Assembly: GCA_040756715.1 (NCBI GenBank)
Contig: JBFLYE010000046.1
Coordinates: 1-9,181 of the forward strand
Source: JBFLYE01 sp040756715 [NCBI: bacterium]
Lineage (GTDB): Bacteria; UBA9089; UBA9088
Direction: 5' to 3'
DNA length: 9,181 bases
In this document: positions 1 through 7,047 of the stretch, in pieces
Layout: each line of letters begins with the position of its first letter
How positions within the stretch are numbered: position 1 is the stretch's first letter
Position numbers and translations under genes: made by a program
Notes under the pieces: model-generated
The model's input: only the letters and a program-made list of their open reading frames with translations
Databases searched by the model: none
What the model was told of the DNA's origin: nothing

Positions 1-458
1 CCCTCTTTTTCTTTCTCTCTACCCTCTTTGTCTTTATCTTTGTCTTTGTCTTTATCTTTGTCTTTGTCTTTATCTTTGTCTTTGTCTTTAATGATTAAAT
101 AATCATTAGGCAATGATTGTTTTACATTAAATAATAATTTATGAACGATTAACTCATCTCGTACAGATATAATCGCAGGTTTATGAGAATTTAAACCTCG
201 TGGATATTGTAACCTAAGGAAATCAGGAATAAAATAATAATCTCCCTTATCTATTATTTTATCTTTAAAAGCTTCTTTAAATTCTTCTTCTGTTATGTTG
301 CTTTCACAACAGAAATTAAGCATTTTAAAATTTTTAATCCATCTGCCCGCAGGAGTGCAGGTATCTAAAACATATATCCATATTAACTTATTTTCTTTAG
401 ATAACTCTAAAAACCATCCGTCCAGCCATTTTTCTGTGAATGTAAATCTTCTAGCCAT
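1..458 (-). CDS. Phage replication-initiator-like protein, N-terminal part (runs off the left edge)
   Basis: This reading frame starts at the ATG at 456-458 and is still open at base 1, so only about 152 residues are visible. An in-frame TAA lies two codons upstream, which supports this start, although no clear Shine-Dalgarno is present. The N-terminal 120 residues have the pattern of the winged-helix domain of many phage replication proteins: aromatic-rich start (MARRFTFTEKWLDGWF), then KLIWIYVLDTCTPAGRW, an acidic helix (ITEEEFKEAF), YYFIPDFLRLQY, and a further helix (VRDELIVHKLL). From about residue 124 it enters a Lys-Asp alternating tract. Such charged linkers between the DNA-binding head and a C-terminal helicase-loader-type domain are common in this group; the C-terminal domain is outside the window. 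It is the last visible gene of the leftward early operon, 38 bases after the 3D-domain gene. Family assignment is by pattern only; a DnaD-like or other phage DNA-binding protein is the alternative. Confidence 0.72.
   Translation of the reverse strand, partial: MARRFTFTEKWLDGWFLELSKENKLIWIYVLDTCTPAGRWIKNFKMLNFCCESNITEEEFKEAFKDKIIDKGDYYFIPDFLRLQYPRGLNSHKPAIISVRDELIVHKLLFNVKQSLPNDYLIIKDKDKDKDKDKDKDKDKDKDKEGREKEKE
25..90. repeat. Hexamer tandem array with 18-bp period encoding (Lys-Asp)n
   Basis: Eleven uninterrupted hexamers of TCTTTG or TCTTTA occur in a regular order, so the real unit is 18 bp (TCTTTA-TCTTTG-TCTTTG). Read on the minus strand it is AAAGAC/AAAGAT, giving an alternating Lys-Asp tract in the replication-like protein. 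The array lies inside a coding frame and its unit is a multiple of 3, so expansion or contraction keeps the frame. Confidence 0.95.
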
Positions 459-3085: not shown

Positions 3086-3802
3086 TCACCTCGTGAGCCA
3101 CCAGAAGCCCACTAAATGCAAAAATGCCTTACGGTCTTGCTTATAGCTATCGGTAATATCTACCCATTCAGGCATTCCTGTAATTTTATCTAGCTTCAAA
3201 ATACCACCACCCCTTACTTTTTTAGGATATTGCATTTGATTATAAGCACTTTTATAACTTGCCACTTGTAATTTCATTTCTGGATATATGTTAGAAGAAG
3301 TTTTTATATCTATGATATATTTTTTATTTTTGATTATTCCTATAATATCGAGAGTGCCTGCATATCCTATTTTTCTTTTGTGACTATACCAATAGACTGA
3401 TTGCTCGCTTTGCAAAGGTTTAAATTGATATTGTTTTTTCCAACTTAAGAAAGCCTGTATTGGCTTTTCAATATTACTAGGAATATTTGGGATAGTTTTA
3501 TTTTTTTTAAGTAATTCTTTAATATAACTTTCAACCCATTTATGCACTTCTGACCCAATGTTTCCTGCTTCTATTTTTATCCTTTCTGCTTCTTGTTTTG
3601 CTTCCTCAAGGATTCTTATAGCTTCTTCTTCGGTCAATCTATTTTGAATATCGGCAAGATGTTTGCCGATATAATTGACCGTAGTTTTTATCGCCCAATT
3701 AAGAAGGGCAGGTTTATTTAGTAAGCTCAATATAGTTGTTGAGCTTGGTAATCTGCCGTAAGGTGTTTCGTAATATCTTTGATTATTGATTTCTATTTTC
3801 AT
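3086..3802 (-). CDS. PD-(D/E)XK nuclease, RecB/Cas4-like phage exonuclease
   Basis: Numbered from the ATG at 3800-3802 (238 residues), the motifs of the RecB-type nuclease fold occur in order: GNIGSEVHKWVESYI with His87, a strand with Glu133, YAGTLDIIGII with Asp152, YIIDIKTSS with Asp165 and Lys167, and MKLQVASYKSAYN with Gln179. These are the His, Asp, Asp-x-Lys and Gln-x3-Tyr signatures of resection nucleases. No cysteine cluster for a Fe-S centre as in Cas4/AddB is visible. In phages such genes next to recT supply the 5'-3' resection that feeds the annealing protein. The chosen start overlaps the upstream stop in an ATGA arrangement; an upstream TTG at 3829 is possible but overlaps 31 bases of the neighbour. 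It could also be a structure-specific nuclease of the same fold. Confidence 0.82.
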   Translation of the reverse strand: MKIEINNQRYYETPYGRLPSSTTILSLLNKPALLNWAIKTTVNYIGKHLADIQNRLTEEEAIRILEEAKQEAERIKIEAGNIGSEVHKWVESYIKELLKKNKTIPNIPSNIEKPIQAFLSWKKQYQFKPLQSEQSVYWYSHKRKIGYAGTLDIIGIIKNKKYIIDIKTSSNIYPEMKLQVASYKSAYNQMQYPKKVRGGGILKLDKITGMPEWVDITDSYKQDRKAFLHLVGFWWLTR

Positions 3803-4017
3803 TTTATCTGATAATTTCTTAATATACAATCCAGTTTGAAAAAGCCAAATAGGGTTGAGCCCTCAGAATCTCCTTGAAAAAGGTATATAATATCTCCCCA
3901 ATTCATATTTTTAAGGCGTTTTATATTAATTTTTCTACTTACACCTATTTTTTCCGCCTTTTTTATGAAAGCGTTGATGGTATAATATTGGTTTCCAATG
4001 AAATGTAGCCAAGTCAT
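3799..4017 (-). CDS. Small unknown phage protein (72 residues) upstream of the nuclease
   Basis: The product starts MTWLHFIGNQYYTINAFIKK and contains AEKIGVSRKINIKRLKNMNWGDIIYLF and GSTLFGFFKLDCI. The pattern of a leading aromatic strand, a helix, then WGD followed by short strands and a G-x-FG strand suggests a small alpha/beta or barrel protein, and the combination looks like a conserved phage family, but I cannot name it. It ends in TGA overlapping the nuclease start (ATGA), so the two are coupled. The region before its ATG lacks a strong Shine-Dalgarno and carries the dif-like site and phased repeats. Function unknown; DNA or nucleotide binding is a guess. Confidence 0.72.
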   Translation of the reverse strand: MTWLHFIGNQYYTINAFIKKAEKIGVSRKINIKRLKNMNWGDIIYLFQGDSEGSTLFGFFKLDCILRNYQIK

Positions 4018-4030
4018 TTTAATTCATTCA

Positions 4031-4058
4031 GGTTAACATAATATATATTATCACTAAT
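4031..4058 (-). other. Second dif-like (XerC/XerD) site, inverted relative to the one at 5845
   Basis: On the minus strand the right arm TTATGTTAACC (4031-4041) is nearly the consensus XerD half-site, followed by a 6-base centre TATATA (4042-4047) and a weaker left arm ATTAGTGATAA (4048-4058) in which only the inner GATAA fits. From GATAAT rightward it matches the site at 5845-5872 at 22 of 25 positions. It lies in a 50-base gap between two genes. In sequence this AT-rich the inner ATAA/TTAT palindrome could arise by chance; the GTTAACC end is the more informative part. Confidence 0.4.
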
Positions 4059-4072
4059 TATCATTAATTATC
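4043..4072 (-). repeat. Three phased 10-bp direct repeats (operator or iteron-like)
   Basis: On the minus strand the sequence is three adjacent decamers: GATAATTAAT, GATAATTAGT and GATAATATAT. A 10-bp period places each GATAAT on the same face of the helix. The first copy overlaps the end of the helix-turn-helix gene and the last overlaps the inner part of the dif-like site. Possible uses are an operator for the adjacent helix-turn-helix protein or accessory Xer binding. Confidence 0.6.
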
Positions 4073-4271
4073 TCACTTTCATAATTCTTTGAATTTTGGA
4101 CAAATCTTTAGGATGTAGATAGTAATTCCCTGACAGCTCATCTTTTTGTATAAGTCCTTTAAATATTCCCTTTTTTATGTATCGGTAATATGTTGCTCGG
4201 GCAATATGTAAAGTATTCATTATATCGGTTGAATTCAACATATTCACTAATCGTTTAGGTTTACCTTGCAT
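4068..4271 (-). CDS. Small helix-turn-helix protein (excisionase/MerR-like DNA binder)
   Basis: The 67-residue product has a helix-turn-helix in LNSTDIMNTLHIARATYYRYI (about residues 12-32), then KKGIFKGLIQKDELSGNYYLHPKDLSKI, the wing-like tail of small excisionase or MerR-type DNA-binding proteins. It is the first gene after the leftward promoter and leader, a usual place for a phage early regulator or excisionase. The ATG at 4269-4271 has no good Shine-Dalgarno; an internal ATG at codon 11 would still leave the whole domain. It could control its own operon through the leader repeats or the phased decamers downstream; this is inference. A recombination directionality factor is the main alternative. 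Confidence 0.72.
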   Translation of the reverse strand: MQGKPKRLVNMLNSTDIMNTLHIARATYYRYIKKGIFKGLIQKDELSGNYYLHPKDLSKIQRIMKVR

Positions 4272-4288
4272 TAGTATTTGAATTTGAA

Positions 4289-4344
4289 AAAGGGGTCTCT
4301 ACGATAGTGATTAACTTTAAGAAGGCAAAGATAGAGACCCCTTT
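4289..4344. terminator. 13-bp perfect inverted repeat (stem A), terminator-like
   Basis: AAAGGGGTCTCTA at 4289-4301 is the exact reverse complement of 4332-4344, separated by 30 bases. On the minus strand the stem is followed by TTTTTC, on the plus strand by TTTATTTTCTT, so it could stop transcription from either side. The 30-base loop is longer than usual for an intrinsic terminator and contains one arm of stem B, which is why a regulatory role is more likely than a plain terminator. Confidence 0.5.
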
Positions 4345-4378
4345 ATTTTCTTGTGATTTTTTAAAGTTAATCACTATC
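4303..4378. repeat. 18-bp perfect inverted repeat (stem B)
   Basis: GATAGTGATTAACTTTAA at 4303-4320 is the exact reverse complement of 4361-4378. The 40-base interval contains the right arm of stem A. Two perfect long repeats overlapping this way are very unlikely by chance. Confidence 0.9.
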
Positions 4379-4392
4379 TTCATTCTAAAAAT

Positions 4393-4422
4393 AGTATATT
4401 ATATCTTTTTTACTTTTGTCAA
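4393..4422 (-). promoter_or_regulatory. Sigma-70-type leftward promoter of the early operon
   Basis: On the minus strand TTGACA (4417-4422, perfect -35) is separated by 18 bases from TATACT (4393-4398, 5 of 6 to the -10 consensus); the spacer is A-rich and also contains TATAAT nearer the -35. Transcription would start near 4386 and run through the structured leader into the helix-turn-helix gene. The -35 lies at or inside the left end of the dead IS, so the IS may supply it. The same nonamer (CTTGACAAA on the minus strand) recurs twice at 6430-6478, which argues instead for a native phage motif. Confidence 0.7.
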
Positions 4423-5460
4423 GTGTTTTTTGTAAGCGTGTAGTTACAATATCAAAAGGAGGTGTCCTAATGATGGATGCAGGTAACAATGTAACTATGG
4501 AAGACTTTAAAAAGTATGAGGTTTTAGAGAAGCTGATTAGGAAAGAAATAAAGGGTTATCAAGCAGGTTCTTCATTGGGGTATTCAGGGGTTCACATATC
4601 AAGATTAAAGCAGAGTTTTAAGGGATGGATTCCTCTTAAACATCAATGGATTCCATCCATTCCTGTGAAATGGTGGCTTATTGCAATGATTGATGATGCA
4701 ACAAATGAGATTCCTTATGCAAGGTTCTTCTCTTCTGATAATATGTTTGCCAATATGGCTGTTATCAGAGGATTTATTGAAAGAAAGAGATTGTTTTCCG
4801 CCCTTTATGTAGACAAAGCCTCTCATTTTGAAACAACAAGACATGGGGGTCTCCATGTAAATGTTAGCCCTGAACAGGATGAGACCCAGATAGAGAGAGC
4901 CTTGAAGGAATTGGGGATTACAATCATACCTGCCAACTCACCCCAAGCTAAAGGAAGGATTGAGGTTAGATTTAGGCTCTTTCAGGATAGACTTATCAAG
5001 AAAATGGCCCTTCTTAAAATCAAGGATTATGATAGTGCCAATGAGTTTCTTCTCAATAACTTTCTGCCTTGGCACAATAAGAAATATGCCCTTTGTTGTC
5101 CTTCTAATTATCTGGTTTTGCCTTACGGGATTAACCTTGGTACTATATTCTGCAGAAAGATTGAAAGGATTGTTAAGAATGATAACACCATTTCTGTGCA
5201 AGGAGAGATTATTCAAATTCCACCAAACAAGACGAGGTTTTCCTTTGCTAAAGCTAAGGTAGATGTCTGTATCTTAGAAGACAATCGGATTATTGTTCTC
5301 TATAAAGGCTCTATTATCTGCGAAACTATGCTTTTAGGAAAGACCAAGGCTCAAAAGAAGGAAGAGGAGATAAAAGAGCTTTTAGAAAAAAGAGAATATG
5401 TGGAATATGAAATACAAAAAAACTAACATTTTATGTAGTAATTAAATATAACATTTGACG
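4418..5460 (+). mobile_element. Degenerate ISNCY / IS1202-like insertion sequence
   Basis: A transposase gene with an ISNCY-type integrase core is bounded by similar inverted ends: GTCAAGTGTT at 4418-4427 and AACATTTGAC at 5450-5459 (reverse complement GTCAAATGTT, 9 of 10). The right end carries two direct copies of a TAACATTT-NN-GTAGTAAT motif, a layout expected of transposase binding sites. No target-site duplication can be seen flanking these positions, so the boundaries are approximate or the ends have eroded. Its G/C-ending codons (CTT, AAG, GCC, GGG) differ from the neighbouring phage genes, in keeping with later arrival. Confidence 0.6.
4470..5426 (+). pseudogene. ISNCY-family (IS1202-like) transposase with internal deletion
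   Basis: The frame has a strong start (AAAGGAGGTG before ATG at 4470) and 318 codons; members of the family are usually about 430-470 residues. Residues 11-48 are the N-terminal helix-turn-helix (EDFKKYEVLEKLIRKEIKGY, then SLGYSGVHISRLK). It then jumps directly to WIPLKHQWIPSIPVKWWLIA and MIDDATNE of the integrase core. The second DNA-binding region, and with it the first catalytic Asp normally in a D-x4-H-x-W setting just before this point, are missing. The second Asp (LYVDKASHF, Asp115) and the Glu (KGRIEVRF, Glu165) remain, followed by the C-terminal domain. ATGGATTCC is repeated at 4625-4633 and 4646-4654 beside the junction, a possible deletion scar. Frame was kept, yet the enzyme should be inactive. 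A shorter functional subfamily is the less likely alternative. Confidence 0.8.
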
Positions 5461-5468
5461 TAGTAATA
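5424..5468 (+). repeat. Two direct repeats at the right end of the IS
   Basis: TAACATTTTATGTAGTAAT at 5424-5442 and TAACATTTGACGTAGTAAT at 5449-5467 are 25 bases apart and differ at three positions. The transposase stop codon is the first three bases of copy one. They are probably transposase binding sites of the IS terminus. Confidence 0.7.
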
Positions 5469-5638
5469 ACAGTATTTTTTTGGCTTGATTTTATTAGGGT
5501 TTGATTTTTTTGTTTGTCATCACTTTTCCACAGGCAAGGTAGAAAACTGAAAAGGATATTAAAAGATACTAACAGAATACCAACGGGAAAAAATTGAAAA
5601 AAATCGTCAAAAAAAAACAGACCCCCCTCTTACCCCTT

Positions 5639-6543: not shown

Positions 6544-7047
6544 ATGATAGAAAAAAAGTCATATGAAAGATATTTCTTTGAAAATGACCCATCAAAAGGT
6601 GGCAGACCAAGAAAACTTGACCCAGTCAAAGCTCTTAAGTTGCGCTTAGAGGGCTATAGCTATTCTGCAATAGGAAGAAAATTGGGAGTAGACCATTCAA
6701 CAGTAATATGTGCTCTTAAGAATTTTAAAAACCTTTTTCAAACTTTATCTGATGCAGAAATTTATGAAAGAATCAAGCCTTCTTGTCTATCAGCCTTAGA
6801 ACTAAAACTTGTGAATGCATTAGCTAATGACGAAAAGATTAACAAAGCATCCTACGGTCATATTGCTTTTGCCATCCGAGAAATAGCAAAACTGAATAAT
6901 TTGGCTAGAGGAAAACCTACAGAGATACAAGATATTACTCAAATTGAGAAAACTTTTAAAGAAATTAAAGAAGAAAAAGAAGAATTATTGAAAGAAATTA
7001 AGAAATTAGGGGAAATTGTAATTGATGGAGAACTTGTAGAAAAATGA
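6544..7047 (+). CDS. terS: Phage terminase small subunit
   Basis: The 167-residue protein has an N-terminal helix-turn-helix of the kind found in small terminases: GGRPRKLDPVKALKLRLEGY, then SYSAIGRKLGVDHSTVICALKNF (about residues 19-61). The middle and C-terminal parts are helical, with a lysine/glutamate-rich coiled coil (EKTFKEIKEEKEELLKEIKK) suited to oligomerisation. Small subunits recognise the packaging start on phage DNA and activate the large subunit. It overlaps the large subunit by 4 bases (ATGA), typical of terminase pairs. The start is ATG at 6544 with no clear Shine-Dalgarno after a very AT-rich leader, so initiation may be weak or leaderless-like. The assignment rests on the helix-turn-helix, size and neighbour; a stand-alone regulator is a less likely reading. 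Confidence 0.8.
   Translation: MIEKKSYERYFFENDPSKGGRPRKLDPVKALKLRLEGYSYSAIGRKLGVDHSTVICALKNFKNLFQTLSDAEIYERIKPSCLSALELKLVNALANDEKINKASYGHIAFAIREIAKLNNLARGKPTEIQDITQIEKTFKEIKEEKEELLKEIKKLGEIVIDGELVEK

Follow-up and report, generated by a model that had tools for sequence, protein, structure and literature searches.

Introduction

Two perfect inverted repeats, the arms of which interlock in the order A-B-A'-B', lie between a leftward promoter and a group of phage-like genes, and the question raised by this locus is what such an arrangement does in the transcript that runs through it. The window, that is, the whole stretch of DNA analysed (9,181 nt), is contig C46 of a bacterial genome of 1.55 Mb in 218 contigs. 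The original prediction, made from the letters of the window, had proposed a switch at the entry into the early operon that works through an RNA pseudoknot or a transcription terminator.

Geometry and context of the leader in the window

A repeat search of the window returned both repeats at the predicted positions, with perfect matches and in the predicted order. The A pair is 13 nt long and 100% complementary, and the B pair is a perfect 18-bp core within a 21-nt, 95% pair. In the minus-strand reading the B pair comes first and is named S1, the A pair is named S2, and the leader of the window is called P1; the four arms then follow one another as S1a, S2a, S1b, and S2b, with gaps of 16, 11, and 1 nt between them (Table 1).

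The P1 promoter is a near-consensus sigma-70 promoter, the −10 element of which ends 9 nt ahead of an ATG (4383-4381), and the genes downstream match phage exonuclease, RecT-like, and RuvC-like families. The earlier placement of the repeats in the leader of a leftward transcript into phage early genes is supported by this promoter (TTGACA-18-TATACT) and by these families. What had been missed is the promoter-proximal ATG, the reading frame that it opens, and three further leaders in a second prophage.

On its other side, P1 is adjoined by a transposase gene that matches phage transposase families. This gene occupies a segment (4431-5470) between the P1 promoter and sequence resembling the P2 flank of the second prophage, which holds an early operon at that place; the ends of the segment were guessed from the limits of homology. 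Given that homology to the second prophage ends just upstream of the P1 −35 element, an insertion there is likely. At the start of the window (1-95), tandem CTTTGT/CTTTAT units were seen by eye, encoding alternating Lys-Asp in an ORF that leaves the contig end.

Table 1. Features of the P1 leader (window positions).
Feature	Positions	Strand	Remarks
Promoter P1, −35 TTGACA (4422-4417), 18-bp spacer, −10 TATACT (4398-4393)	4393..4422	-	11/12 consensus matches
Predicted transcription start region, AGA directly 5' of ATG	4384..4386	-	Placed from the −10 spacing
Leader ORF, 40 codons plus stop	4261..4383	-	Stop overlaps HTH gene start by 11 nt
S1a (B')	4361..4378	-	5' arm of helix 1, from 2 nt past start codon
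S2a (A')	4332..4344	-	5' arm of helix 2, inside helix 1 loop
S1b (B)	4303..4320	-	3' arm of helix 1; in P1b, changes compensate those in S1a
S2b (A)	4289..4301	-	3' arm of helix 2, 1 nt past S1b
U5 run, possible terminator tail	4287..4291	-	3' end of S2b; read from sequence
First gene after leader, 67-aa helix-turn-helix (HTH)-like protein	4068..4271	-	HTH_17 match weak, below cutoff

Further leaders in a second prophage

Elsewhere in this genome, contigs C202 (L007) and C72 (L008) have an identical 127-nt end in common, and their proteins are 93% (terminase), 83% (RuvC-like), and 51% (HTH) identical to those of the window; they are treated here as one prophage that is probably related to that of the window. 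This second prophage has three more leaders with the order S1a-S2a-S1b-S2b, named P1b, P1c, and P2. A search of the genome for the motif TTGACA-N15-20-TATACT-N5-8-AGAATG found P1, P1b (on two overlapping contigs), and P2. P1b is approximately 80% identical to P1. P1c, with a TTGACA-18-TATAAT promoter at L007 6257 on the minus strand, has 17 perfect pairs in S1 and 13 pairs in S2, including one G-U, and has the S2 core and the ATGAA start in common with P1. P2 follows a promoter at L008 3398 on the plus strand and consists of 11 pairs plus an inner 8 in S1 and 9 pairs in S2; it has in common with the others the promoter type, the ATGAA start, and the topology, and the letters of its S2 are different.

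As for the letters of the helices, the S2a core AGGGGTYTCTA is common to P1, P1b, and P1c; P1c differs in S1 and P2 in both helices, and ATGAAAG, located in S1a, is common to P2 and P1c. The link between S1b and S2b is 1 nt in P1, 2 nt in P1c, and 0 nt in P2; in P1b it is 6 nt when counted from a 9-bp core and disappears when S1 is extended. Measured from the predicted transcript 5' end through S2b, the four elements are 89-109 nt long. With mostly other letters, this layout stands ahead of further early genes, a recurrence suggestive of a small RNA switch built into the leader.

Other structured stretches were noticed on L008. Compact interleaved inverted repeats (S1 CTGACAACA, S2 ATCCCCAGCCA) lie at 4671-4721 past the stop of a 102-aa early gene, where no promoter was recognized by eye; an identical 127-nt stretch occurs again beyond an N run, probably as an assembly effect. 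Elsewhere among the early genes of this prophage, by eye, the Shine-Dalgarno (SD) sequence lies within or beside hairpins: a 31-nt arm pair, 81% complementary, surrounds the SD and start of the 137-aa gene (3497-3558), and two similar CCCC...GGGGAGGAGG units precede the 146-aa gene (5028-5112).

A reading frame that begins close to the promoter

In all four leaders, an ATG 9-10 nt past the −10 element opens a frame that runs through both helices, with 40 (P1), 43 (P1b), 39 (P1c), and 37 (P2) codons. Its stop overlaps the next start by 11, 23, 4, and 4 nt, respectively, with the gene starts being the analyst's choice, and in P1c and P2 the overlap is ATGA. No SD match of at least 4 nt precedes any of the three P1-type first genes. 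Since 10 of 25 other genes also lack such a match, which is present in 15 (one of the genes, the exonuclease, was read one base off register), the absence of an SD lends weak support to coupling. Selection for the leader peptide itself was considered and set aside: the substitutions between P1 and P1b fall 7/7/5 by codon position, with no third-position bias, and 11 of 13 changed codons among the 31 compared are nonsynonymous.

Start codons so close to promoters are enriched in this genome, where 47 ATGA were counted 4-12 nt past TTGACA-N16-18-TANNNT versus 6 AGTA, the latter being the one permutation used as a composition-matched control for ATGA, in this genome alone; P1b is counted twice, and at four of the six AGTA sites the promoter has an ATGA as well. 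Among the matches listed, the four leaders excluded, 20 of 30 promoter-ATGA sites of the genome open ORFs of at least 100 codons. Promoters with ATGAA 4-12 nt past the −10 element also occur in 17 of 19 genomes of the phylum, this one among the 19, a recurrence in sequence that suggests many leaderless mRNAs.

Recurrence of the topology and chance

Whether interleaved helices of this kind stand out from background was judged by several scans. The exact scans used an S1 of at least 10, an S2 of at least 8, and a link of at most 6. Eight sources, 74,400 b in all, yielded P1, P2, and, in L009, an AT-rich array of repeats, and 40 Markov-resampled windows gave 0 matches on both strands. Over 164 loci (1.97 Mb), there were 17 matches in 12 loci versus 4 in 3 in the control; five of these are accounted for by P1, P1b, P2, and the compact L008 pair, which counts twice. 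The remaining 12, in 9 other loci, indicate against the 4 of the control that short exact pairs exceed the Markov level unaided. The loci of the various scans were drawn from relatives (the best 80 of 118 by terminase and the best 80 of 164 by RuvC-like protein), 42 viral stretches in which the promoter-AGAATGAA motif occurs, and promoter sites in 19 genomes, part of which became loci.

When G-U pairs and one mismatch were permitted and no promoter was demanded, P1, P1b, and P1c ranked 1-3 in 83 loci (864,819 bases), each stem having a stacking energy of −25.0 kcal/mol or better. The weaker stem of the next real pair (L055) is at −19.5, and the best control pair is at −19.7; anything under rank 3 is therefore at the control level, and weak interleaved pairs are common background in these loci (864 real, 645 control). 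P2 is absent from the 40 best rows owing to its weaker S1. In a scan anchored on 171 promoters, duplicates removed, a score of −35 or better was reached 6 times versus 0.2 expected from shuffles, with P1, P1b, P1c, and P2 accounting for 4 of the 6. The same four also come first among 135 promoter-proximal ATGA sites when these are scored for helices of the interleaved kind, a ranking without shuffles in which the fifth site (L314, −36.5) is close behind P2 (−39.0). Being homologues, P1, P1b, and P1c count once, so that the topology has two independent occurrences, the P1 type and P2.

The other two high scores of the promoter-anchored scan are on viral contigs, each after a near-consensus promoter: a 27-pair helix with a 42-nt loop and a weak crossing stem (L187, 17328, plus strand), and a 22-pair hairpin with a 6-nt loop and a 6-bp crossing (L117, 269, plus strand).

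All four leaders come from one genome; neither the S2-core pattern nor the HTH protein was found in the other genomes among 19 of the phylum. Viral contigs yielded no relatives of the HTH, 137-aa, and 114-aa proteins, and genome contigs none in the terminase alignment, from collections that may omit records of this genome. The S2 core was also tried as a widespread motif and rejected: AGGGGTYTCTA...TAGAGACCCC occurs in 11 genome-contig stretches, 8 of them from Bradyrhizobium, and none of the 11 has a crossing stem of at least 6 bp within 60 nt upstream. The viral contig L029 has the S2 core, and the interleaved pair is absent from it in the exact scans. The eight Bradyrhizobium stretches (L324-L330, L332) have in common a palindrome of the AGGGGTYTCTATC...GATAGAGACCCC type, the resemblance of which to the S2 core is in letters alone.

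Covariation and energy balance of the helices

Between P1 and P1b, 9 of the 18 pairs of helix 1 are unchanged, 4 are changed on both sides, 2 have become G-U, and 3 are lost, leaving P1b with 15 of 18. When these changes were placed at random, as many pairs survived in 0.96% of trials (0.0096), 27 of 500 shuffles reach the observed value, and a control with slid partners gave at most one double change. The covariation of helix 1 is modest, coming from the only two sequences that are well alignable. The core of helix 2 varies, by eye, only from C-G to U-G and from U-G to U-A, which is consistent with pairing but hardly a test of it. Homologues without compensatory changes had been named in advance as evidence against the structure; the opposite was found, as P1b compensates in the B arms.

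The two helices are close in energy in the P1-type leaders. At 8 nt past S2b, forced S1/S2 folds have −25.0/−26.6 (P1), −28.2/−26.7 (P1b), and −31.0/−30.4 (P1c) kcal/mol, that is, gaps of 1.6, 1.5, and 0.6 kcal/mol, and for the leader plus the first start the gaps are 1.6, 0.3, and 1.1 kcal/mol; these are raw energies of forced folds with a single stem. Exactly at the S2b end they are 1.3 (P1), 3.8 (P1b), and 1.9 (P1c), with P1b and P1c favouring S1. In P2, S2 is weaker than S1 by 4.3 at the S2b end, 3.0 at 8 nt further, and 10.1 over the full leader, the best fold of which (−36.6) is a third state that closes the downstream start: this start and its SD are paired with S1b and S2b. The leader ATG lies within S1 in P1b, where the helix is extended to include it, in P1c, and in P2; in P1 the helix starts 2 nt past the ATG. 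RNAs in the S2 form have a mostly open 5' end.

The earlier remark that the two stems may be mutually exclusive fits these near-equal single-stem energies. The H-type pseudoknot advanced with it is not established, and the 1-nt link and the 11-nt connector beside an 18-bp stem would hinder full coexistence. Given that the connector between S2a and S1b would have to span the whole of S1, exclusion or exchange would be simpler than coexistence.

Comparison with known systems

By class, the leader is a cis-acting RNA switch, and no known system with which it was compared matched as a family. No Rfam family was found at the gathering threshold in the window. A relaxed search of the P1 leader (4240-4440, E up to 5) gave 17 matches, mostly to hairpin families, of which the lowest E-value (0.0017) belongs to a miRNA precursor family at 25.7 bits versus a gathering threshold of 80; on L007 and L008 (E up to 1) there were 4 matches, none at P1b or P1c. 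A literature search with limited subscription coverage met no title or abstract opening that describes such a leader. Nearest in their working are the pseudoknot switch of ColIb-P9 repZ, the co-transcriptional structures of MS2, hok, and aapA3, the operator of T4 gene 32, and HK022 put RNA.

In ColIb-P9, the repY stop and repZ start are coupled and there is an antisense RNA from the opposite strand. A pseudoknot of the regulatory region, PK-repZ, is described as switching the translation of repZ and repY (PMC12370729). The overlap of the leader ORF stop with the regulated start (11, 23, 4, and 4 nt) is a likeness to it, whereas the present leaders have a promoter-proximal ATG and belong to a phage early operon. 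For an antisense RNA, the plus strand of 4000-4600 offers promoter-like sites that match at only 9 of 12 positions and do not rise above background (4 sites on both strands versus 3.3 in shuffles). The PK-repZ model is absent from the relaxed Rfam lists for 4240-4440, L007, and L008.

The T4 gene 32 mRNA leader has a 5' pseudoknot (a component of approximately 28 nt) upstream of the regulated start, with gp32 as autogenous repressor (PMC535899). The likeness, a structure at the 5' end of a phage mRNA leader, is set against a span of 89-109 nt, a leader ORF, and no known repressor here. In the T4 operator, UUAAA/UAAA repeats lie between pseudoknot and start, and the regulated gene codes for a single-strand binding protein. 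No match to such a protein was found in the HTH, 137-aa, and 114-aa first-gene proteins (Pfam, PHROGs) or in the 54-aa one (Pfam only). The STAXI RNA motif contains pseudoknots. It is a conserved structure near DNA-handling genes, such as that of single-strand binding protein (PMC12370729), but it is not in the Rfam lists of the leaders, each of which follows a promoter.

In HK022, putL lies at PL and putR approximately 270 nt downstream of PR, each put comprising two stem-loops of approximately 70 nt, similar in sequence between copies, that act as nascent RNA (PMC9378689). Put resembles the present element in lying at early promoters with two copies per phage; its stem-loops are adjacent, in contrast to the interleaved arms here. 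Put antiterminates through the beta' zinc-binding domain of RNA polymerase. The MS2 5' UTR, hok, and aapA3 form metastable structures during transcription, and whether translation is open or closed depends on when they fold (PMC6733600). In aapA3, an SD is sequestered, whereas here there is no room for an SD at the first start and the competing helices are interleaved.

Alternative explanations

A transcription attenuator, with S2 and its U-rich tail as intrinsic terminator, S1, which forms first, as antiterminator holding S2a in its loop, and the leader-translating ribosome deciding between them, is an unlikely explanation. The GC-rich S2 is indeed followed by U5 in P1, UAAAU7 in P1b, and U4 in P1c, and S1 and S2 are near balance 8 nt past S2b; to this extent the terminator of the original prediction fits three of the leaders. 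It fails to extend to P2, where an SD and no U-run comes after S2, so that a hairpin with a U-run is not in every member; taken by itself, an S2 hairpin would enclose 30-36 nt (30 nt in P1), and a tool that considers loops of 3-8 nt only found no compact minus-strand terminator at P1 (4000-4600), P1b, or P1c. The terminator-like site on the sense strand of P2 (L008 3486-3501) lies in the S1 loop and arm, not in S2, with 0.8 such sites expected from shuffles. Given that P2 has no U-run at S2 and has the third state, a mechanism common to all four leaders is hardly termination at S2 and likelier translational. Quite unlikely, in turn, is recognition of the leader helices by a specific binder. 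What P1 and P1b conserve best, by eye, is the S2 core together with the A-rich loop next to it, and the element occurs in several units of one phage; but the S2 letters of P2 differ, S1 is common only in its start-region letters, and no candidate protein was identified. A binder would need to recognize mostly shape, since the P2 letters differ.

It is very unlikely that the folded nascent leader binds RNA polymerase and confers terminator resistance in the manner of put. The position directly at early promoters, in more than one copy per phage, recalls HK022 putL and putR, but put consists of two stem-loops with a sequence similar between copies, whereas the helices cross here and the P2 sequence differs; moreover, the units of the second prophage, with L007 promoters at 6565, 6257, and 5747, are short. 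Slightly more improbable again is a DNA-level element (an operator, recombination, or replication site) with no role as RNA. Inverted repeats close to early promoters are often operators, and these lie near such a promoter, but at 4 positions the S1 arms of P1 and P1b keep the pairing over the letters, and in all four leaders the arms begin at or within approximately 10 nt of the predicted transcript 5' end.

A possible switch at the 5' end of phage early mRNAs

The reading to which the evidence points, at a confidence a little short of even, is a co-transcriptional RNA switch located at the 5' end of early phage mRNAs, in which S1 closes and S2 opens the leader start, thereby gating the coupled first gene. 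S1 and S2 at full length would exclude each other. In the nascent RNA, the ATG would be open at first and a ribosome could load without an SD; synthesis of S1b would then allow S1 to form and shut the start region, and S2b, coming next, could let S2 displace S1 and reopen the 5' end. Translation of the leader would be limited to early or S2-form transcripts, and that of the first gene likewise through the overlapping stop and start. A trans factor may tilt the balance between S1 and S2, and the U-rich tail in P1, P1b, and P1c may contribute some attenuation. The transcript start, the leaderless initiation, and the coupling are predicted steps.

It is a more doubtful proposition that the four leaders represent a reusable phage cassette, in which a strong promoter, a leaderless leader ORF, and two interleaved, energy-balanced helices are employed in several early units of one phage, the letters being rewritten and the topology kept, as RNA timers for leaderless translation.

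Messages without an SD give a regulator little to hide, and their control is, to our knowledge, less well understood. If the switch is real, a helix that pairs a 5'-proximal start codon and is balanced by a crossing helix would be a direct way to time SD-less translation, and the phage would be reusing a topology and not a sequence. The leader would also offer a compact model in which to ask whether long helices that interleave can be present together in a growing transcript or rule each other out.
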